This document shows, piece after piece, positions 46 to 21,445 of a DNA stretch of 34,406 nucleotides. The DNA comes from Okeania sp. KiyG1. Lineage in GTDB: Bacteria; Cyanobacteriota; Cyanobacteriia; Cyanobacteriales; Microcoleaceae. Position 1 is the stretch's first letter, and every line of letters starts with the position of its first letter. A model generated the notes under the pieces. That model was not told the DNA's origin. It was given only the letters and a program-made list of their open reading frames with translations, and did not search any database. The position numbers and the translations under genes are program-made. The stretch is from NCBI RefSeq assembly GCF_014132355.1, contig NZ_BLZO01000027.1, forward strand, positions 1-34,406. Direction: 5' to 3'.

Positions 46-3000
46 ATGTCAGGACGTTTACTTCGGAATATCTGGAGAGTTCTCGATACAGACATTGAGT
101 TTAACTTGGCCAACATTGATTTGATTTGGCTCACGCTTGAAGAAAAATTGCGCTTGAGAGGAGTCAAAGTAACTGGCGATTATATGACTATTTTGCGTCT
201 GATGCTGCGAAGCACCTCAGATGACGAAATAGCAAAAGAGCTGGGTAAAGCTAAATCAACTATCGCTAATAAAAAGACAGCTATTCGCAGAGATTTGAAC
301 GATCTGTTAAAAGATAATAATGTTTCTCTTCCCGATAGAGATGAAGAATACCTAAAACGTTTATCTGAAGCTGGTGCGATCGCTAGTAATCTTTCCGTTA
401 CTGGCAGTGGTATAGAGGCAAGCAAGGCAGTTTTTGAACTGATGGAGACCCTCCAAAAAGGTAAAAATGTGGGGGAACTCAAACCTATTATCGACAATAT
501 CAATTCGGTACTCGATGTGCTTAACTCGCCTTTGAAAAAAGTTGTCGAGGTGGGTTTACCTTTTTTGTCTATTGCAACTGGAATTATTTCTTATATTGTT
601 GAACAAACTCGTCAGGAACCCACCTTAGAAGATTCGGTGGAGTTGATAGCTCAGGTAGCTTATTTAGAAAGTATTAGACAATTTTTTATAGAACATCCAG
701 AAATTCAAGATAGGTTGACAGAAACTGAAGCTTCGGAAGCGGTACAAAAACAGATTAATAAGTTGGATGAAGAAATTAATTTTAATGACCGAGATGCTAA
801 GGATACTTTGATTTGTTTTTATGATTCACCTTTGAGAAAAAAAATTGATGAGATTTTATTTGCAAGTCTAAAAGAGTCTGGTTTGGATAAAAATACTGCC
901 AAAATTGTTACTGAAAGAATTTCTCGCAGTACCCATCGCTATATTAAGGAAATAGTGGTACAGGTGAAAAATGATGCTCAAAAATTAGCCGGATTTTATG
1001 GGGATAGTTGGCAGCAAAATTTGGAAGCTTATACCAGTATTGATAATTATTTGGAGGAGGCGATCGCTACTAAACCACAGGAAAAAGTATTTGACGAAAA
1101 TTTCACTTTTAGGCAAATTTATGTACCACTAGAAGTCAAATCTGTTAACTCTGATGGGAAGCTTGAAGAAAGAGCAACATCTCAGAATATTGAGGAGTGG
1201 GCAAAAACAATTTTGTTGGATGAAAACAAAGACAAACAAGTGTTATTTATTCAAGCGGGACCGGGAAGAGGAAAAAGTGTATTTTGCCGGATGTTTGCTG
1301 ACTGGGTGCGACAGGAATTACATCCTATTTATACGCCTATTTTGATTCGGTTGCGGGATATCAGAAATTTTGCAGCTAATATTGATGAGACTCTAGCTGA
1401 TGCTGTGGGTTGGGATTTTGTCAAGACTAATAGCGGTTGGTTGACAGACCGCAATACTCGGTTTCTATTTTTGCTGGATGGGTTTGATGAGTTGTTGTTG
1501 GAGCGGGGAGCGAGTAATGAGTTGAAGGTGTTTTTAGACCAGGTGGCGCAGTTTCAGAAACAGGCAGCAGAAAATAAGGAGCGCGGTCATCGGGTATTGA
1601 TTACAGGTAGACCTTTGGCACTTTATGGTATTGAAAGGTTGATGCCTCCTAATTTAGAGCGGGTGAGTATTTTGCCTATGGGTAATGATATTCAGCAAGG
1701 GTGGTTTCAAAAGTGGCAGATGATTTTAGGGGAGGAGGAAGCAGAAAAGTTTCGAGAATTTTTGCACAGCGAACAATGTCCGGTGCAGGTTAAGGTGTTG
1801 GCGCGGGAGCCACTTTTGTTGTATTTGCTTGCTGCAATGCACCGGGATAAGCAGTTACAGAGGGAGATGTTTGCTACTTCTGATGTTGGTGGGGCGAAAG
1901 TTTTGATTTATGATCAGGCGTTGGAATGGGTGCTGGAAAAACAGCGAGTAGAAAATGGTCAAAATCTTAATCCTAAAATTACGAAGTTGGAGTCAGAAGA
2001 TTTGGAAATTTTGTTGGCAGAAGCGGGGTTGTGTGTGGTGCAGTCTGGTGGGGAATATGCTGCTATAAAAATGATTGAAGACCGACTGGTGGAACAGGGA
2101 TATAAGGAGTTGCAGGCGTTAATTGAAAAAGCTAGGCAAGATAAACAAGAGGATGGGCTGAAAAATGCTTTGGCTGCTTTTTATTTGAAGTCGGCAGCGG
2201 AGGCGGAAAATTCAGTGGAGTTTTTCCACAAGAGTTTTGGTGAGTTTCTCTGTGCAAAACGGATGGCAGAAAGTCTGGAAGATTTGACGCTGAAAACTGG
2301 GAGGCGACGTAAGACTTATGTGGTGTCTGATAAGGAGTTGGAATGGCAGGTTTACGATCTGTTTGGTTATGGTAATTTGACGGCGGAAGTTGTGGAATAT
2401 TTGATGGCGTTGTTGGTGAAAAGTGAGGTTGAGTTAGTAGTGTTGTTTGAGCGGTTGCATGGGTTTTATGTAGACTGGAGTGAAGGGGAGTTTATTGAGG
2501 CGACGGAGGAAACTTTACCTCAGAAAAAGGCGAGGCAGTTGCAGCAGTGGGGTATTGAGTCTGGGCAACGTCGGGCGAATATTTATACAGGGTTGAATGT
2601 GATGATTTTGTTGTTTGAGTTGCATCGTTATGGGCAGTTTCAGGAGGAGTTGCAGGAGCAGTTGCATTTTTATCCTTGCGGTCAACCTGATAGTGAAGAT
2701 TTTGAGAAAACAAGATTATTAAGGATTATTGGTTATAGCCAATGTCTTGGAATTGCTGCTTTTGTGGAAATAGTAGGTAAGTTCCTCAGTAGTGCCGACC
2801 TCAGTAGTGCCGACCTCAGTAGTGCCGACCTCAGTAGTGCCGACCTCAGTAGTGCCGACCTCAGTAGTGCCGACCTCAGTAGTGCTGACCTCAGTCGTGC
2901 TGACCTCAGTAGTGCTGACCTCAGTAGTGCCAACCTCAGAAATGCCAACCTCAGTCGTGCTGACCTCAGTCGTGCTGACCTCAGAAATGCCAACCTCAGT

Positions 3001-3417
3001 CGTGCTGACCTCAGAAATGCCAACCTCAGTAGTGCCAACCTCAGAAATGCCAACCTCAGTAGTGCTGACCTCAGAAATGCCAACCTCAGTAGTGCCAACC
3101 TCAGTCGTGCTGACCTCAGTCGTGCTGACCTCAGTAGTGCCAACCTCAGAAATGCCAACCTCAGTCGTGCCAACCTCAGTCGTGCTGACCTCAGTCGTGC
3201 CAACCTCAGAAATGCCAACCTCAGTAGTGCCGACCTCAGTAGTGCCAACCTCAGTAGTGCCGACCTCAGAGATGCCGACCTTAGAAGTGCCAACCTCAGT
3301 AGTGCCAACCTCAGTGATGCCGACCTCAGTAGTGCTAATCTCAGTGATGCCGACCTCAGCAATATAAAATGGAATAACAACACAGTATGGCCTCGTGCTT
3401 TCGGGATACCTACATGA
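46..3417 (+). CDS. NACHT-type STAND ATPase with N-terminal HTH and C-terminal pentapeptide repeats
   Basis: This 1123-aa protein is a multidomain STAND NTPase. Residues ~45-95 look like a LuxR/sigma-4-type helix-turn-helix. Residues ~178-195 form a hydrophobic helix of the kind seen in cyanobacterial NACHT proteins. The NTPase core has Walker A GPGRGKS (405-411) and a Walker B/NACHT motif LLDGFDEL (~476-483), followed by an alpha-helical region to ~915. From ~917 to ~1107 there are about 38 pentapeptide repeats of A(D/N)LSS/R type, expected to fold as a right-handed beta helix. STAND ATPases of this class act as oligomerising sensors or switches, some in antiphage defence; the ligand and effector output here are unknown. 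The ATG at 46 has no clear Shine-Dalgarno, but the HTH follows directly. The next ORF overlaps its last 23 bases. ATPase identity is confident; any immune role is inference. Confidence 0.9.
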   Translation: MSGRLLRNIWRVLDTDIEFNLANIDLIWLTLEEKLRLRGVKVTGDYMTILRLMLRSTSDDEIAKELGKAKSTIANKKTAIRRDLNDLLKDNNVSLPDRDEEYLKRLSEAGAIASNLSVTGSGIEASKAVFELMETLQKGKNVGELKPIIDNINSVLDVLNSPLKKVVEVGLPFLSIATGIISYIVEQTRQEPTLEDSVELIAQVAYLESIRQFFIEHPEIQDRLTETEASEAVQKQINKLDEEINFNDRDAKDTLICFYDSPLRKKIDEILFASLKESGLDKNTAKIVTERISRSTHRYIKEIVVQVKNDAQKLAGFYGDSWQQNLEAYTSIDNYLEEAIATKPQEKVFDENFTFRQIYVPLEVKSVNSDGKLEERATSQNIEEWAKTILLDENKDKQVLFIQAGPGRGKSVFCRMFADWVRQELHPIYTPILIRLRDIRNFAANIDETLADAVGWDFVKTNSGWLTDRNTRFLFLLDGFDELLLERGASNELKVFLDQVAQFQKQAAENKERGHRVLITGRPLALYGIERLMPPNLERVSILPMGNDIQQGWFQKWQMILGEEEAEKFREFLHSEQCPVQVKVLAREPLLLYLLAAMHRDKQLQREMFATSDVGGAKVLIYDQALEWVLEKQRVENGQNLNPKITKLESEDLEILLAEAGLCVVQSGGEYAAIKMIEDRLVEQGYKELQALIEKARQDKQEDGLKNALAAFYLKSAAEAENSVEFFHKSFGEFLCAKRMAESLEDLTLKTGRRRKTYVVSDKELEWQVYDLFGYGNLTAEVVEYLMALLVKSEVELVVLFERLHGFYVDWSEGEFIEATEETLPQKKARQLQQWGIESGQRRANIYTGLNVMILLFELHRYGQFQEELQEQLHFYPCGQPDSEDFEKTRLLRIIGYSQCLGIAAFVEIVGKFLSSADLSSADLSSADLSSADLSSADLSSADLSSADLSRADLSSADLSSANLRNANLSRADLSRADLRNANLSRADLRNANLSSANLRNANLSSADLRNANLSSANLSRADLSRADLSSANLRNANLSRANLSRADLSRANLRNANLSSADLSSANLSSADLRDADLRSANLSSANLSDADLSSANLSDADLSNIKWNNNTVWPRAFGIPT
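2791..3362 (+). repeat. 15-bp tandem repeat encoding the pentapeptide tail
   Basis: About 38 consecutive 15-bp units of the form AGTGCCGACCTCAGT lie inside the NACHT gene. The first six or seven are almost identical at the DNA level, including synonymous sites; later units alternate among a few variants (AGTGCC/AGTGCT/CGTGCT/AGAAAT with GAC or AAC). Because 15 is divisible by 3, several other frames are also open, which creates long spurious ORFs on both strands. Near-identity at silent positions suggests recent expansion or homogenisation. Confidence 0.95.
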
Positions 3418-3990: not shown

Positions 3991-4093
3991 GTCATTTCAG
4001 TTATCAGTTATCAGTTATCAGTTATCAGTATCAGTTAACAGTTATCAGTTAACAGTACCTCTGGCTAAACCCAGAGGCTTGAAATACTGAATC
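3991..4093 (+). repeat. CAGTTATCAG-type dispersed repeat inserted in the pseudogene
   Basis: It begins GTCATTTCAGTTATCAG, continues with several CAGTTATCAG/CAGTTAACAG copies, and ends with CAGTACCTCT...AGAGGCTTGAAATACTGAATC-like sequence. The same order of parts recurs at 6523-6629, so this is one defined element and not only a microsatellite. The AGAGG...CCTCT parts can pair. Confidence 0.8.
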
Positions 4094-5280: not shown

Positions 5281-5412
5281 ACATCTCCTTAACGAAGTCA
5301 GAAGTCAGAAGTCAGAAGTCAGAAGTTATTTTTGTAACAGGTATTTTGAGCAACTCTCCAAAAATATTTCGCCTTAAAAGGCAGGATTTTAGACCCAATT
5401 ATTTTGAGAAAA
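5281..5412 (+). repeat. dispersed ~130-bp element (copy 1)
   Basis: It starts at the stop codon of the pseudogene with ACATCTCCTTAACGAAGTCAG, includes four-fold AGAAGTC repeats, then TTTTTGTAACAGG, GAGCAACTCTCCAAAAATA, TTTCGCCTTAAAAGGC and CCAATTATTTTGA. The same order of blocks occurs on the opposite strand at 31481-31600. Confidence 0.85.
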
Positions 5413-6629: not shown

Positions 6630-6854
6630 AGGACTTACCCATGCTTCACCTTGAAAGCGCCATATGTAGGGACGTTAGCGGAGCTTTGCGCTAGCAAATG
6701 GCATTTGCCCCTACTGTGGTTGACTGAAATGAAAATCGCTGTACACCATACTTCTTGGCCAAAAAACCCTACCTTTGCAAAGATACCAAATGGCTTCTAT
6801 AAAATCTTACTTTTGACTTTTGACTTTTGACTTTTGACTTTTGACTTTTGACTT
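6630..6854. repeat. half-element of the AGGACTTACGCA family plus TTTTGACT tandem repeat
   Basis: From 6630 the sequence reads AGGACTTACCCATGCTTCA and continues with ...CATATGTAGGGACG...AAATGGCATTTGCCCC, resembling the interior of the elements at 10473-10602 and 31737-31825, but the right-hand TGCGTAAGTCCT end is missing. From 6809 to about 6854 there are six tandem copies of the octamer TTTTGACT. Confidence 0.6.
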
Positions 6855-9175: not shown

Positions 9176-10021
9176 TCAGTCCACTGGTTTGCGACCTAAT
9201 ACCAAAAAAGTAGTACCATTATTCCAAATTCCTTCTGGTGTAATTAACTGTTCTAATTCTTCTTCAAATTCGGCTTTCATTTGTTCTATTTCCTCGGAGG
9301 AAAGTTGTGTAAGTGGATTAGGAATATTTCCTGGGGAAGGATAATAAACTAAATTCCACCTTTTTTTCGTATCTTCTAAACTCAGATAACTCCCATGATT
9401 TTCCATTTCAACAGAAATTATTTCTAAGTCTGCTTGTGTCAATAAATCCTGGTATTTTTCAATAGTATTTACGGTATTTGATAAATGAAAAACATCAAGA
9501 TTTATCCCATGATTTTCTAATACTTTTTCCAAAACAACTATCCCCGTAAAACCAGTTTCAGCTATACTATGAAGACCTATATAACCTCCAGGTTTGAGAA
9601 ATGTAGACCAAAGACGTAAAGTAGCTGCTTTATCTGCCATTAAGGGAAAAGCATTAGCACAGAAAATTAGGTCAAAACTGTTAGCTGGAAAGTCGATATT
9701 TTCCCCATCTGCCAACTGAAATTCTATATTTTTCAGGTTCAATTGTGCAACTTTTTTTCTGGCTTGTTCGAGCATTCCACTAGAAATATCTATCCCCACA
9801 ACCCGACCATCATCGCCTATTAATTGAGCTACTTCAATAGCAACATGACCTGTTCCAGTAGCAATATCTAAAACTTTATCTCCCGGTTGAATTTGTGCAA
9901 ATTCAACCAGACGATGGGTAATCTGAGAATGCCATTTACTTTCATCATAATTTTGGCTTCTCTGACTATAAATTTTAGCTAATTCCTGTTTATATCGGTC
10001 TAATTTTACTTGGTTATTCAT
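9176..10021 (-). CDS. class I SAM-dependent methyltransferase, UbiE/MenG-like
   Basis: This 281-aa protein has a Rossmann methyltransferase fold. Motif I is LDIATGTGH (51-59, AdoMet binding), followed by VVGIDIS (acidic loop end, ~75-81), the ADGENIDFP segment, and the FDLIFCANAF motif. The substrate is not evident; it resembles the UbiE/Methyltransf_11 group used on quinones, sterols or small metabolites. An in-frame ATG ten codons upstream (10051) lies inside the end of a dispersed repeat (GTAAGCATTCAG), so the ATG at 10021 (MNNQVKLDRY) is preferred. It is a single minus-strand gene between the apc operon and mutS. Methyltransferase identity is firm; the pathway is unknown. Confidence 0.85.
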   Translation of the reverse strand: MNNQVKLDRYKQELAKIYSQRSQNYDESKWHSQITHRLVEFAQIQPGDKVLDIATGTGHVAIEVAQLIGDDGRVVGIDISSGMLEQARKKVAQLNLKNIEFQLADGENIDFPANSFDLIFCANAFPLMADKAATLRLWSTFLKPGGYIGLHSIAETGFTGIVVLEKVLENHGINLDVFHLSNTVNTIEKYQDLLTQADLEIISVEMENHGSYLSLEDTKKRWNLVYYPSPGNIPNPLTQLSSEEIEQMKAEFEEELEQLITPEGIWNNGTTFLVLGRKPVD

Positions 10022-13493: not shown

Positions 13494-13607
13494 CAGTTAT
13501 CAGTTAACAGTTATCAGTTATCAGCATAGTTTGTAGAGTATTTTAGATGGCAAAAATTTAGACTGTGAAAAGTATTTGCTATAAACAGAGTTATCTTTAG
13601 ATGACTT
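13494..13607. repeat. CAGTTATCAG repeat directly after mutS, then gene-free sequence
   Basis: From 13494 to about 13525 there are tandem CAGTTATCAG/CAGTTAACAG units starting at the base after the mutS stop. The remainder to 13607 is AT-rich and without visible features. Confidence 0.7.
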
Positions 13608-14960: not shown

Positions 14961-17644
14961 TTATTTTGAAGTATTAGATTCATTTTCTTGTTGTGGAACT
15001 GGAATAATATCTTGAATTTGCTTTACCCATTTTGGTAATCCAGATGGATATAACTTAGGATAAATAATCAGCAAAAGAATGCCAATAATAGCAGAACTTA
15101 AGTAATAAATAATTTGCCCATTCTGCATCCAAGTCAAGAAATCTAAAAATCCAAATTTTTTGGGTTTCTCGATTTTTCGCTGAGAGGATATTTTTGGTTG
15201 AGAAGAATTTGCTGTTACTTTTCTTTTTCGCTGAGAGGATATTTTTGGTTGAGGAGAATTTGTTGTTACTTTTCTTTTTCGCTGAGGAGATACTTTTGGC
15301 TGAGGAGAATTTCCTGTTACTTTATTTCTGATATTACCCTCATCACCTAATACATTTCCCACAACATTTCCATTTTTATTTTCAATTTTCCTGCTTTGGT
15401 CATTGACAAATTTTTCAGCTATAGTTTGATTGCCAATAACATCATTATCATTAATATTGATTACTGAGTCAGTATAATTATTTATTGTGTAGTTTGTAGA
15501 ATTTTCAGGCTGTAAAAAACTACTACTCCGTTCTATTTCTATTACATCACCAATTAAACTTAATACCTCAACTGTATGATAGGGAGGTTTACCACATTCA
15601 GCAGTGTATTTGCCATGACTAATTCGTTCTTTTAATTCCTTAAAGTTGTAGAAGTAAGGATTCTGATTATTATGACAAGTCGTACAATTACAAGGAATTA
15701 ATTTATTATATTTGAGTCGATCATTGTAGGAACTATGAATTTTATCTAACTCGTGAGTCACAATAGTCATTAAATCCCGTTTTTGCTGCCCATAGATCCT
15801 AATTTTTATTTCTCTCTTACCGTAATATTCAATTACTTCTGCTCTGGCTCGATTTTTCTTGAGAATAACTCCGCTTTTCCAAACATATTTTTGCTTCTCA
15901 ATATCTTTGTGCATCACTACAATAAACTGAGTAATTATTCCCTTGGGCATAAATTCGTAAGTGTAACGTAAAATCAAATTATTACTTTCATCCCAGTCAT
16001 ATTCTGGTTGAGCTTCTGTTAAAAGTTGAGGTGCAATATAGGCTTGAGAAGTACCAGGAATTTTATAGCAGAGTTTAAATTTAATCATTAATTGCAGTAG
16101 TTCATCGTGCATATCTACATATTTATATTCATGCCAAATCTTGGTTAAATCATCCTTGGTAAATTTGCCAAAATTATCATAAACTTGCCGATTATCTAAA
16201 ACTTTATAAACTGCAGCTGTTCCCCATTCTGGTTTGAGAATAACTGTTTTATTTAACAACGGGTCATCTTGGAAATGAAGAAAAACTCCTAAGTCATGTA
16301 AATAGCCACTTAATTGTAATTTATCCTCTCGTTTCTTAAAGCCATTCTTTTCGCAAATAGATAAATATTTTGCCAAACTAATATAGTTACGACCATCTGT
16401 TTCTAATGCTTTACGGACTTTTTTCCAAGTCTTAGGAAGGGCATTGCCAATATGAGGTAAATTACTGATGTAATGTTGGATATCTGTTCTAATTTCTTCT
16501 AATCCTCTGTTAGTAGCTAGATTAGTAGCTAAAATTTCTTTGATATTAGAAAATTGACCTTGCAATGCTCTTTGATTAATTTCCCGTTTACGTTCTTGTT
16601 TCTCATTTTTGATAATTAATAAAGGGCTATTATCGCTCAACAATTCTGCTATATTCAGCCAAAAATAAAAGTCTGTATCTTCTTTACGAGTATCAGCTAC
16701 AAGAATATATAGGGAGCGCTTGGTCAGAAAAAATTGGTGAGTACCATGATAAATTTCTTGTCCGCCAAAATCCCAAATATTCATCTGAAATTCATGTTTA
16801 TTTGCTGTCTGAAAATTCCACTGATGAACTTCAATTCCTTTGGTTGTATCTTCATCTTGTAGTTGATAGTTTTGGTTTTGAATTTTATTAGCTAGAGTAG
16901 TTTTACCCGCACCGCCTTCTCCAATAATTAGTAATTTAGCCTCATAAATATAATCTTTTCCTTCTTCTTCTATTTGTCGGAAATACTTTCTAATTGGTTC
17001 TATCCCTTTTTGAGCAATTTCTATTGGTGGAGTTTCCAGAGTATTACCTCTTAAACCAAGGCAAGTTAAATTGGTGAGTTTACTTATTGATGGGATATTT
17101 TTTAATCGATTACGACTTAAATCAAGTATAGTTAAACCAGTAAGTTTACTGATAGATTCTGGAATATTCGTTAATCGATTATGACTTAAATCAAACTCAG
17201 TCAAATTGGTGAGTTTAGAGATTGATTCTGGGATACTTATTAATTGATTACTACTTAAATAAAGTGCAGTTAAATTGGTGAGTTTAGAGAATGAATCTGG
17301 AATATTTGTTAATTGATTACCACTTAAATCAAGCCTAGTTAAATTGGTGAGTTTAGAGATTGATTCTGGGATACTTGTTAATTGATTACCACTTAAATCA
17401 AGCCTAGTTAAATTAGTGAGTTTAGAGATTGATTCTGGGATGCTTGTTAATTGATGATTTCTGAAATTTAATTCTTTTAGCTGCTCTAACTCCCAAATCT
17501 CAGTAGGAATTTCAGTTAATTTTTCATTGCTATTCCAATGATCACTTAAATTTAACTCCTTAAGTTTTTATATTTAACTGCTTGTATTTTTTCTTGAAAA
17601 TGTTGTGGTATCCGATTCTGCTTATTTGTTTCAGTAGAAGTCAT
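14961..17644 (-). CDS. LRR-Roc-COR (Roco family) GTPase with C-terminal TM helix; N-terminal frameshift
   Basis: The gene encodes a bacterial Roco protein. An ATG at 17644 starts MTSTETNKQNRIPQHF...; near 17562-17570 the frame shifts by one base in an A-run (minus strand). From there an open frame continues to 14961, with TTG 17204 its first usual start codon. About seven 23-aa leucine-rich repeats (LTxLDLSxNxLTxIPESISKLTN) are followed by the Roc GTPase with P-loop GEGGAGKTT (~16922-16896) and the G3 motif WDFGGQE, then a COR domain, a Cys cluster CNCTTC near the COR end, three 17-aa basic repeats (NSPQPKxSxQRKRKV), and a TM helix (IIYYLSSAIIGILLLII) near the C-terminus. Roco proteins are GTP-controlled dimeric switches. 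If the shift is real, the LRR domain loses its normal start; read error or slippage could also explain it. Confidence 0.85.
15165..15322 (-). repeat. three 51-bp tandem repeats within the Roco gene
   Basis: These encode the basic linker units of the form NSPQPKxSxQRKRKVTx just before the TM helix. The nucleotide copies are very similar, indicating recent in-frame duplication. Confidence 0.8.
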
Positions 17645-17954: not shown

Positions 17955-19685
17955 CACACACCTCAAATCCTTGAAGCTTCACAAAATGATATAGCTATTG
18001 CGATATCCGCAACAGAAAGGGGGAAGTAGATATTTTTCCCCATCACACACTCTCAAGTTATGCGCTTCACAAAATGAAATAGCTATTGCGACATCCGCAA
18101 CAAAGAGGGGAGGTAGATATTTTCCCCACCACACACTCTCAAGTTATGCGCTTCACAAAATGATATAGCTATTGCGACATACGCAACAGAAAGGGGGGAG
18201 TAGATATTTTCCCCATCACACACTCTCAAGTTATGCGCTTCACAAAATGATATAGCTATTGCGACATCCGCAACAAAGAGGGGAGGTAGATATTTTCCCC
18301 ACCACACACTCTCAAGTTATGCGCTTCACAAAATGATATAGCTATTGCGACATACGCAACAGAAAGGGGGGAGTAGATATTTTCCCCATCACACACTCTC
18401 AAGTTATGCGCTTCACAAAATGAAATAGCTATTGCGACATCCGCAACAAAGAGGGGAGGTAGATATTTTCCCCACCACACACTCTCAAGTTATGCGCTTC
18501 ACAAAATGATATAGCTATTGCGACATACGCAACAGAAAGGGGGGAGTAGATATTTTCCCCATCACACACTCTCAAGTTATGCGCTTCACAAAATGAAATA
18601 GCTATTGCGACATCCGCAACAAAGAGGGGAGGTAGATATTTTCCCCACCACACACTCTCAAGTTATGCGCTTCACAAAATGATATAGCTATTGCGACATA
18701 CGCAACAGAAAGGGGGGAGTAGATATTTTCCCCATCACACACTCTCAAGTTATGCGCTTCACAAAATGAAATAGCTATTGCCATATCCGCAACAGAAAGG
18801 GGGGAGTAGATATTTTTCCCATCACACACTCTCAAGTTATGCGCTTCACAAAATGAAATGACTATTGCCACATCCGCAAGACCAGAGAGGAAGTAGATAT
18901 TTTTCCTCATCACACACTCTCAAGTTATACGCTTCACAAAATGAAATGACTATTGCCACATCCGCAAGACCAGAGAGGAAGTAGATATTTTTCCTCATCA
19001 CACACTCTCAAGTTATGCGCTTCACAAAATGAAATGACTATTGCCACATCCGCAAGACCAGAGAGGAAGTAGATATTTTTCCTCATCACACACTCTCAAG
19101 TTATGCGCTTCACAAAATGAAATAGCTATTGCCATATCCGCAACAGAAAGGGGGGAGTAGATATTTTTCCCATCACACACTCTCAAGTTATGCGCTTCAC
19201 AAAATGAAATGACTATTGCCACATCCGCAAGACCAGAGGGGAAGTAGATATTTTCCCCATCACACACTCTCAAGTTATGCGCTTCACAAAATGAAATAGC
19301 TATTGCCACATCCGCAACAGAAAGGGGGAAGTAGATATTTTTCCCCATCACACACTCTCAAGTTATGCGCTTCACAAAATGAAATAGCTATTGCCATATC
19401 CGCAACAGAAAGGGGGGAGTAGATATTTTTCCCCATCACACACTCTCAAGTTATGCGCTTCACAAAATGAAATAGCTATTGCCATATCCGCAAGACCAGA
19501 GAGGAAGTAGATATTTTTCCACATCACACACTCTCAAGTTATGCGCTTCACAAAATGAAATAGCTATTGCGATATCCGCAACAGAGAGGGGAAGTAGATA
19601 TTTTTCCACATCACACACTCTCAAGTTATGCGCTTCACAAAATGAAATAGCTATTGCGATATCCGCAACAGAGAGAGGAAGCAGG
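17955..19685. repeat. about 20 tandem ~86/87-bp units with two conserved hairpins each
   Basis: Units start CACACACTCTCAAGTTATGCG and recur at 18044, 18130, 18217, 18303, 18390, 18476, 18563, 18649, 18736 and on, with alternating 86- and 87-bp spacing in the first half, a 173-bp higher-order pair. Each holds hairpin A (TTGCG-loop-CGCAA, shortened to TTGC/GCAA in many copies) and hairpin B (GGGGA(A)...T(T)CCCC). In the units near 18823-19090 hairpin B changes to GAGGAA...TTCCTC, altering both arms together. There are no unique spacers, and the 86-bp units break any reading frame. It ends at a TATAGCAGTCG element end. Function unknown; it might be a structured RNA array or a DNA structure. Confidence 0.95.
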
Positions 19686-19945
19686 TATAGCAGTCGCCTT
19701 CAAGATTCAGCACTTCGTACAAACCTTGCATACAAAATCCCTACCTTCCAATAACCAAAGATATGTAGCAAAACTTTTGATATAAAATCTCAAAATATTG
19801 CTTAATTTATTTTTCAAACTGTCAGAAAAGAAACTGCCAAAATCATCAGTTACTTACCAAAACCACTTTTGATAACCAAACTACCAGCTTTAATATTAGC
19901 TGTTAAAATTTCAACTTATAACTTCCTTCAACACAAAAAAATATT
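19686..19945. other. half-element TATAGCAGTCG and upstream region of the membrane protein gene
   Basis: TATAGCAGTCGCCTTCAAG at 19686 is the left end of the element family at 28749 and 31213, without the matching right end. The remainder is AT-rich and should hold the promoter of the gene at 19946. No other gene is seen. Confidence 0.5.
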
Positions 19946-20452
19946 ATGACAACTGAACAAAAAATTGCTAATTTCTTTCAAATGACAGACGAAGTTTGGT
20001 CACGTCATGCTCATCCCTGGAGTGTCTTAACTCGGTTCCCTATATTACCTTTAATTATTATTTCTCTTTGGAGCCGAACTTGGATTAATTGGTGGTGTCT
20101 AATTCCCATTATTATTGCCATTATATGGACTTGGATAAATCCCCGAATTTTTCCCAAACCAACCTCAACAAATAATTGGTTCTCAAAAGCAGTCTTCGGA
20201 GAAAGAGTTTGGTTAAACCGTCAAAAAATAGAAATTCCCAAACATCATCAACCCGTAATTAAGAATATTAATTTAATTTCTTTTGTAGGTTTACCATTTT
20301 GTATTTGGGGATTAATTCAGTTGAATATCTGGCCGACTTTATTAGGAATTACTCTGGTACTTTTAGGTAAAATGTGGTTTCTCGATCGCATGGTTTGGTT
20401 ATACGAAGAAATGAAAGATGCTAATTCAGAATATCAGAGTTGGTTGTATTAG
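19946..20452 (+). CDS. small integral membrane protein, DUF6653-like
   Basis: This 168-aa protein begins MTTEQKIANFFQMTDEVWSRHAHPW, a soluble tryptophan/histidine-rich N-terminus. There are four hydrophobic segments, at about 32-43, 47-64, 110-122 and 127-142, grouped as two hairpins, separated by a polar loop with GERVWLNRQKIEIPKHHQP. The ending is MVWLYEEMKDANSEYQSWLY. This fits the uncharacterised DUF6653 membrane family as I remember it; the family name is less certain than the membrane nature. The function is unknown. It stands alone between the tandem array and radC, with an A-rich leader and no strong ribosome binding site. Confidence 0.8.
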   Translation: MTTEQKIANFFQMTDEVWSRHAHPWSVLTRFPILPLIIISLWSRTWINWWCLIPIIIAIIWTWINPRIFPKPTSTNNWFSKAVFGERVWLNRQKIEIPKHHQPVIKNINLISFVGLPFCIWGLIQLNIWPTLLGITLVLLGKMWFLDRMVWLYEEMKDANSEYQSWLY

Positions 20453-21445
20453 TAATAAACTGAAAATTATATGCAGAAAAATCTAGAGTTAAATTGACGA
20501 TATTGCTAACTTAACCCTCCGGAATTACCAACTTCCTCTAATTTTAAATCAGCTTTCTCTTTGTCTTAAACTATTAAGAGTAATTTATCCTTTAAGTAAT
20601 ACCAATTCCCAAAAGTAACGCTATACTTGGGGGCAACTTCAGTTATTAAGTAATTAACATAGCTCGAATAACTTTTTTGCTAATTAGTAGCTAAATTTAA
20701 TGTTAATTATTCTTATTTGTACCGAATAATTAATAATTAATAATTAAATAATTCGCGCCTTTAAGCCGACCCTTTTAAGGGGAAAAAGCGGTCGTTAGCG
20801 TAGCTTCCCGTAGGGTGGGATGGCGAGGTCTCCTCGCCATATCCAATCGACCAAGAGAAGAAATAATATTTCCTTATATTCAATTCCGTAACAGTTTTAA
20901 CCAGAGGTAATTATCCATTATCCATTATCCATTATCCATTATCCATTATCCATTATCCATTAATGAATTCTCCCACACTCCCCTACTCTCCTACTCCCCT
21001 GCTCAATAAAATACGGTCAGCTTAAATAGGTAAAAAAAATATTTTTAGATTGACATTTCTAGCACCAAAGTATGATGTCCTAAAACATACTTACAACCGA
21101 ATAAATACTGAAATTATCTTGACTTTTCTCCTTTCTTCCCTCCTGTTTACGGAGCATGACAAACGGAAATTCTGAGTTCTAGCTAAGTTATTTATTAAGT
21201 ATTTAACCGAACATGGTATAACTTATATTATGTTTAGAAATTATCGACCTTAATTTTTTAACAAAAAAGTCAGGTCTTAAGACTTCCCTTTGAAGAGGAT
21301 AAAAAAGAAAAATCTCTATCTTCAAAACCTCCCTATTGGAGGATATACTGATAGCCTAGCTCATCTTTCTAAGGGTAGCTTCTCTCTCAAGAGCCTAACT
21401 AATAGCTAATAACTGATAACTGATAACTGATAACTGATAACTGAA
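20453..21445. other. 993-base repeat-rich spacer
   Basis: No credible gene. Contents in order: AT-rich sequence; a GC hairpin ATGGCGAGG-TCT-CCTCGCCAT at 20820-20840; seven tandem TTATCCA units at 20911-20962; CTCCCCTA-type runs near 20970-21000; ends of the ATATTATGTTCGG element family near 21206-21235 (TTAACCGAACATGGTATA and TATATTATGTTTAG); and TAACTGATAACTGATAACTGA units at 21407-21444, running to the radC start. Confidence 0.6.

Follow-up and report, generated by a model that had tools for sequence, protein, structure and literature searches.

REP/BIME elements are mostly single or paired palindromes with a GTAG or CGTC tag and with RAYT transposases, and the CENP-B box is a motif of set length that is shared between unrelated satellites. 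The NsiR1 array yields an expressed RNA, with a promoter in each repeat and discrete transcripts. Dispersed non-coding satellite families with long repeats are reported to be rare, as in Leptospira interrogans and Methanocella conradii (Subirana and Messeguer 2019, PMC6749651), and the recognition of prokaryotic satellites by proteins has been suggested (Subirana and Messeguer 2021, PMC8161180). The string 'cyanobacter' has no match in the main text of PMC6749651, and no description of the palindrome family analysed here was found in the literature on tandem repeats of Okeania and Trichodesmium, mainly non-subscription papers and including part of PMC4060949. The reason for the large amount of non-coding DNA in such cyanobacteria is an open question, as stated for Trichodesmium (PMC4649490).

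Here we analysed a stretch of 34,406 nucleotides from Okeania sp. KiyG1 (the window), which sits on contig C27 of an 11-Mb genome; this genome encodes a phycobilisome protein and is therefore cyanobacterial. The tandem array in the window belongs to a non-coding satellite family that is restricted to one clade and dispersed over many loci. Like the prokaryotic satellite families described in PMC6749651 and PMC8161180, where their function is unknown, this family has non-coding tandem units of more than 30 bp and several related arrays per genome; unlike the satellites surveyed there, it has a defined box and palindrome that are conserved, its arrays occupy orthologous loci, and the palindrome is common to unrelated units. 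It resembles the NsiR1 array of heterocystous cyanobacteria in being a cyanobacterial tandem array with short direct repeats (PMC4734099), REP/BIME elements (PMC3733652) in having short intergenic palindromes in many copies, and the CENP-B box of eukaryotic centromeric satellites in having a short motif within satellite units, the last as an analogy of layout only (PMC4446444, PMC7438015). Bacterial satellite DNA is a known kind, and the shared palindrome is the unusual part: the arrays are abundant, clade-specific, located at orthologous loci and united by one short palindrome. As a motif common to unrelated satellites can serve as bait for its putative protein, part of the question of non-coding DNA becomes testable.

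A tandem array between divergent genes

TRF reported a repeat at 17976-19672 of the window (period 87, 19.5 copies, score 2631, 92% matches), in agreement with 20 boxes that start from 17977 to 19633, and the array of about 20 units given in a preliminary description of this DNA is thus real. The features of the locus are as follows.

17976..19700, plus strand: tandem array of 20 units of 86-88 bp, the last one truncated; intergenic, with divergent genes on either side
17977..17989, plus strand: box CTTCACAAAATGA, first of 20 (unit list), conserved across arrays
18065, 18151, 18238, 18324, 18411, 18497, 18584, 18670, 18757, 18844, 18932, 19020, plus strand: starts of the following box repeats
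19108, 19195, 19282, 19370, 19458, 19546, 19633, plus strand: starts of the remaining box repeats
17996..18012, plus strand: palindrome (hairpin A) TATTGC-N7-GCAA, first of 20, the last at 19652-19668; shared with other satellite families
18020..18041, plus strand: region of hairpin B (GGGGAA...TTCCCC) in unit 1, which lies in the fast-evolving linker; covariation not significant
18844..19107, plus strand: three near-identical GAGGAA...TTCCTC units, reported earlier as a compensatory change; one linked event
17955..17976, plus strand: 5' edge, a partial linker (CACACACCTCAAAT...), by eye similar to the subtype found throughout the orthologous arrays of G002 and G001
19686..19695, plus strand: TATAGCAGTC, just beyond the last unit (by eye)
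14961..17204, minus strand: left neighbour, gene for an LRR-Roc-COR (ROCO) protein, pointing away from the array
19946..20452, plus strand: right neighbour, gene for a DUF6653 protein, pointing away from the array; anchor of the orthologous locus

The successive box spacings are 88, 86, 87, 86, 87, 86, 87, 86, 87, 87, 88, 88, 88, 87, 87, 88, 88, 88 and 87 bp. An alternation of 86 and 87 bp had been reported for the array; it holds for about 18065-18757 only, where two unit types alternate, the spacing elsewhere being 87/88. Likewise, the start that had been given, 17955, takes in the partial linker, and the first full unit begins at 17977; the last unit (19633) is cut inside hairpin B. With unit lengths of 86, 87 and 88 bp no reading frame runs through the array, as had been claimed, and because the frame is broken in this way the array is non-coding and a coding function was ruled out. 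A CRISPR array, with a conserved repeat and unique spacers, was also rejected, whole units being repeated at the match level given above. The units are head-to-tail and non-coding, as in a prokaryotic satellite family, and the periods found elsewhere, such as 76, 80, 85, 86 and 92 bp, likewise permit no continuous reading frame.

Distribution and unit architecture of the family

A search for the unit in related genomes, which the preliminary description had proposed, revealed a large family of related arrays both by BLAST and with a covariance model built on the box and the palindrome (the core). BLAST of two units found more arrays in the window genome, and 10 of 60 genomes, the own genome among them, had matches. 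With the strict filters that were used for family-level counts, the core was present in 13 of the 62 genomes of the taxonomic family (own genome included), which belong to three genera (g1, 6/6; g7, 6/7; g8, 1/1), and in none of the 48 genomes of its other eight genera; across the phylum sample it was found in 2 of 386 genomes, namely the own genome and one of g7. The six genomes of g1, G000 (the window genome) to G005, are referred to as Okeania-type. A unit-pattern scan of named genomes gave 52 stretches, 49 of them from Okeania, Hydrocoleum sp. CS-953 and a Microcoleaceae MAG; three lone pattern matches outside the cyanobacteria (Bacteroidetes, Hydrotalea and Clostridium) were taken as chance. 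An origin from phages or plasmids was rejected, since viral contigs did not match the alpha pattern, nor did plasmids and phages match the two-unit query; the bare palindrome had 10 single matches in viral contigs, which by our guess is about chance.

In the window genome, 150 candidates out of 11098 at first look were scored with model R1, and all 150 core matches belong to 11 arrays, which are spread over 10 contigs, with no solitary match, so that several related arrays are dispersed within this one genome, as in a satellite family. For the unit counts, loci were fetched by motif or BLAST and identical contexts were removed, and the arrays in these counts are not independent because orthologs remain. 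A looser first set of 751 units was reduced to 560 units in 67 arrays, and 59 of the 67 entered the alignment, the rest being excluded because they were duplicates, had unsuitable lengths or contained N. The median period was 69-92 bp in 50 of 53 arrays, with three longer ones (114, 146 and 146.5 bp). Helical phasing of the spacings in these 53 arrays was uninformative (vector length 0.46 for a 10.5-bp period and 0.53 for one of 10.0 bp).

Each unit is composed of the box (GCTTCAnAAAATGA), the palindrome (CTATTGC-N7-GCAATAG) and a fast-evolving linker. Across 53 arrays, the information per position was 1.87 bits in the left arm, 1.79 in the box, 1.45 in the right arm, 0.84 in the spacer, and 0.61 and 0.15 in the linker, the values of arms and box being biased upward because both served to find the units; the right arm is less conserved than the left. 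The spacer measured 7 bp in 355 of the 368 units with good arms, ties being resolved in favour of 7, and the other lengths were 0 bp (7 units, all in one G011 array), 8 (2), 10 (2), 5 (1) and 1 (1). The G011 array (L126, 1689-2242, 7 scored units) has the palindrome without its 7-bp spacer (AACTATTGCGCAATAGTT). In units of the window type the spacer is variable and occurs in both orientations within 8 of the 67 arrays (in-place inversion); in L101, for example, GTATAGA and TCTATAC spacers are found in otherwise like units.

The palindrome in unrelated repeat units

In these genomes the palindrome recurs in at least six repeat units that have nothing else in common. Its 17-bp version, TATTGCGACATNCGCAA, has 122, 77, 92, 56, 103 and 68 copies in G000 to G005, respectively, against 0 for the reversed control. 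Elsewhere among the 62 genomes it was found in G012 (16 copies), in three g7 genomes (17, 14 and 4) and in G009 (1), the other 51 having none, and in the phylum sample 3 of 386 genomes matched (the own genome and two single copies; 1 match for the reversed control). The shorter version, TTGCGACATACGCAA, has 55 copies in the window genome and none for its reversed control. Exact copies are strongly clustered: another one lies within 500 bp for 50 of the 55 copies of TTGCGACATACGCAA in the window genome and for 51 of the 56 copies of TATTGCGACATNCGCAA in G003, whereas random placement gave 0.26-0.37 clustered copies on average and a maximum of 4-6. This clustering, the head-to-tail order of the cores and the lack of solitary cores in the window genome (0/150) distinguish the family from REP/BIME elements. 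By eye, GTAG occurs in the linker of many Okeania-type units and is absent from the g7-type units inspected.

Repeat units that hold TTGCGACATACGCAA in the window genome measure 52 bp (C190), 59 bp (C145), 63-64 bp (C58) and 86 bp (C78, not of the window type), and longer ones 143 bp (C9), 146 bp (C121) and 167 bp (C47); on C97 and C109 the copies are mere pairs beside PEP-CTERM-like sequence, with no TRF array. When the palindrome was masked in six units (alpha to zeta), 14 of the 15 pairs aligned no better than shuffles, the exception being alpha-epsilon (7/300 shuffles); the comparison covered the same strand only, and three of the six units were taken from arrays with just two to four copies. 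Across 108 anchored units of family beta, the palindrome hardly varies, adjacent bases are equally conserved, and the spacer is GACATAC or GACATCC in 99 of the 108. In family delta its conservation is 0.834 vs 0.838 for the rest, the T[A/G]TTGC-N7-GCAA pattern is absent from 10 of 30 units, and the spacer is inverted in place in 2 of 30. On contig C9 of the window genome (L152), two PEP-CTERM-like ORFs (by eye) that end at 9562 and 10571 carry the palindrome at their 3' end, where it encodes the final LLRMSQ before the stop; flanks similar to those of L152 are found at L157, L158, L191 and L193.

Orthologous loci and turnover of the arrays

As judged by flank similarity, the array at the DUF6653 locus is present in five of the six Okeania-type genomes, with 20 units in the window, 19 in G004, 11 in G002, 9 in G005 and 5 in G001; the first 19 residues of DUF6653 have no match in G002. 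In G003 the DUF6653 match is limited to residues 88-168, with a stop, and no palindrome lies ahead of this piece. Four genomes of other genera (G017, G022, G035 and G012) possess the DUF6653 gene with 0 or 1 palindrome upstream and no array.

Units of the DUF6653 locus diverge by 0.083 within arrays vs 0.167 between orthologs, and the subtypes at one locus differ between species. For the comparison of loci, arrays were grouped by their flanks, yet single units were picked by motif. The divergence of the core without its spacer was lower than that of the linker at all six loci compared, and at loci whose 3' flank could be used the values for core, linker and flank were 0.077, 0.187 and 0.063 at the DUF6653 locus, 0.060, 0.150 and 0.073 at the larE locus, and 0.022, 0.297 and 0.092 at the prfC locus. 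For the BMP arrays, core plus spacer diverged like the linker (0.172 vs 0.166) because spacer orientation differs between species; the flank value of this locus (0.228) is doubtful, and for loci II and V the 3' flanks (0.45 and 0.53) were left unused, as they look like misaligned windows. The linker has a rapid turnover, with homogenisation inside each array. The orientation of arrays relative to neighbouring genes follows no rule, and convergent, divergent and co-directional ORFs all flank arrays.

Possible roles of the palindrome and its arrays

Our best explanation, to which we assign a probability of roughly 0.4, is that the palindrome is read as DNA by a putative protein of this clade and that the arrays act as multi-site docking platforms. 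A putative sequence-specific, probably dimeric, protein would recognise the palindrome, each array would provide docking sites for nucleoid organisation or would titrate the putative protein, and the copy number of an array may change through unequal recombination or slippage. The conserved half-sites, the mostly fixed 7-bp spacing and the spacer that can be inverted in place would fit the duplex DNA site of a dimeric protein. Together with the recurrence of the palindrome in unrelated satellites, they support in part the idea of a DNA site, which derives from the chromosome-organising site proposed in the preliminary description and which is the best fit among the roles suggested there. However, the spacer-free array, the weaker right arm and the constant spacer of family beta speak against a strict dimer site, and the spacer deletion in L126 is something that a fixed-spacing dimer should not accept. 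Also counting against the docking reading are the bases beside the palindrome in family beta, which are conserved to the same degree, the ordinary conservation of the palindrome in family delta and the lack of its pattern in 10 of 30 units there, the like divergence of linker and core with spacer at the BMP locus, array orientations that obey no rule with respect to genes, and clustered copies that are mere pairs.

Alternatively, the palindrome may be a determinant of amplification or mobility (a hairpin or nick site that would trigger tandem duplication, or the recognition site of a transposase-like enzyme), with arrays that are selfish or mutational and have no host function, and we regard this as a serious, if still tentative, possibility. 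The spacer flips point to an element that occasionally forms a DNA hairpin or undergoes template switching, and the in-place inversions in 8 of 67 arrays and 2 of 30 delta units may be a trace of template switching at a small DNA hairpin. An amplification determinant would also accord with the clustering of exact copies far above random placement, with a DUF6653-locus array in five Okeania-type genomes and none in the four genomes of other genera, with the homogenisation of units within arrays and the species-specific subtypes at one locus, and with the TnpB-like ORFs that by eye adjoin 3 of the 26 arrays inspected (L073, L087 and L093). On the other hand, arrays are retained at the same loci in different species, the core without its spacer diverges less than the linker at six loci, most arrays inspected by eye have no adjacent transposase-like ORF, the alpha pattern is absent from viral contigs and the two-unit query from plasmids and phages, and the arms, at 7 bp, are rather short to cause strong hairpin mutagenesis. 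The docking version is favoured because arrays persist at their loci and the core is conserved, and the amplification version because nearly all copies are clustered and the spacer flips. A palindrome that did no more than drive amplification would likewise be conserved and shared. The two versions remain close to each other.

A bacterial system resembling the CENP-B box, in which a 17-bp palindrome, bound by a putative clade-specific protein, would be the shared functional element of several independently arisen satellite families across the chromosome and their docking arrays would organise a large nucleoid, seems rather unlikely to us.

Hairpins, folding and transcription signals

The two potential hairpins per unit that had been described both exist in the window array. 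Hairpin A keeps TTGC/GCAA in 20 of 20 units, as had been noticed, around varying spacers (GACATCC, GACATAC, GATATCC, CACATCC and CATATCC). The main point of the preliminary description was a compensatory change in hairpin B, with GAGGAA...TTCCTC in several units around 18823-19090. This variant is present, but in just three consecutive units (18844, 18932 and 19020), and because these are near-identical and adjacent the change is counted as a single linked event, as the caveat that such units may share one ancestor had allowed; units 19458 (GAGGAA with TTCCAC) and 19546 (GGGGAA with TTCCAC) are uncompensated. For an arm-swap test of hairpin B, 30 arrays with a loop resembling TAGATATTT provided 27 haplotypes, each from a different array. 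When their 3' arms were exchanged, the native mean was -7.27 kcal/mol vs -6.90 +/- 0.29 for swapped arms, and 209 of 2000 swaps were at least as good; the numbers were 571 of 2000 on the reverse strand (27 haplotypes, 30 arrays) and 223 of 2000 at least as stable as native for the window alone (9 haplotypes). Within-array swaps in 22 arrays gave a low value for L016 (7/300), followed by the window (42/300), with 84-300 of 300 in the other 20. In the box and hairpin A, none of 10 pairs was changed on both sides among 59 sequences from 59 different arrays, the shuffles averaging 1.3. Compensatory covariation was rejected on the arm-swap test and the pair counts, neither of which was significant.

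A representative unit was obtained from 63 of the 67 arrays, and 60 of the 63 were folded. Compared with dinucleotide shuffles, the mean z was -1.52 on the plus strand and -1.34 on the complementary strand (-0.79 and -0.58 for the part after hairpin A alone), a mild effect, alike on both strands, that was not accepted as a sign of RNA. The strand asymmetry of G-U pairs gave a mixed result: G-U type variants outnumber A-C type ones at pair 2 of hairpin A (20 arrays vs 2), and the bias is absent at pair 1 (6 vs 7 arrays). Because arm swaps and pair counts show no significant signal and fold energies only a mild one on both strands, selection on a folded RNA, as had been suggested for the array, is not supported. 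The palindrome, not a folded RNA, looks like the working part.

It is improbable that the arrays are tandem non-coding RNA genes of the NsiR1 type or encode a long structured transcript acting as a sponge. There is a cyanobacterial precedent for a non-coding RNA from a tandem array (Ionescu et al. 2010, as listed among the references of PMC4734099), satellite transcription has been reported in Bacillus coagulans (PMC8625621), and about 80% of the non-coding fraction of Trichodesmium is reported to be transcribed (PMC4649490); the plus-strand folding and the G-U variants at pair 2 point in the same direction. However, covariation is absent in both hairpins, pair 1 lacks the G-U bias, folds of the complementary strand have the greater stability (on average -16.8 vs -14.6 kcal/mol, and in 40 of 60 arrays), and the orientation to genes is not fixed. 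A scan for sigma-70-like sites, the only type considered, found 3 vs 7.6 expected in the scanned region, all of them outside the array and none within it, and the array has no match at the gathering threshold nor up to E = 1 in Rfam, which may or may not include NsiR1; unlike NsiR1, the family also occupies many loci. The minus strand carries nine terminator-like sites, where shuffles have 1.5 +/- 1.1, and each is a palindrome followed by CTATTTCATT; this excess would speak for an array that insulates the divergent ROCO and DUF6653 genes from each other or that stacks weak transcription terminators. Such a role is very improbable: the nine sites are copies of one motif and not independent, their T run is broken, the sequence after the palindrome differs in other repeat families, and arrays lie between ORFs of every relative orientation.

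Other repeats in the window and its genome

By eye, arrays at three different loci, including the window, larE and L049 (L035, L017, L033 and L049), have TATAGCAGTC or a string much like it immediately after their last unit, and the string is also found beside a 207-bp satellite on C121 (L150). As a test of TATAGCAGTC as an element end, TATAGCAGTCNNCAAG was searched in the own genome and has two copies only, one of them away from any array of the palindrome family. Satellites with no visible palindrome were observed in L017 (6115-8499, 160 bp), L150 (583-3001, 207-229 bp) and L160 (572-1299, units of 89-191 bp), and the window genome seems rich in satellites generally. In L018 (3587-5912) and L059, two unit types with a common box (CTTCACAAAATG) alternate; the second type is without the palindrome, and other inverted repeats are seemingly present in it.

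In the window itself, the protein encoded at 46-3417 has NNH3, matches NACHT weakly and carries a long tail of pentapeptide repeats. TRF also reported heptanucleotide tandem repeats of TCAGTTA (3997-4057), GAAGTCA (5294-5326), ACTTTTG (6809-6854), CAGTTAT (13494-13524), ATTATCC (20910-20962) and TAACTGA (21396-21444). The LRR part of the ROCO gene contains 69-bp repeats (17043-17640), and by eye a different frame seems to carry it on upstream, beyond the called start, perhaps because of a frameshift.
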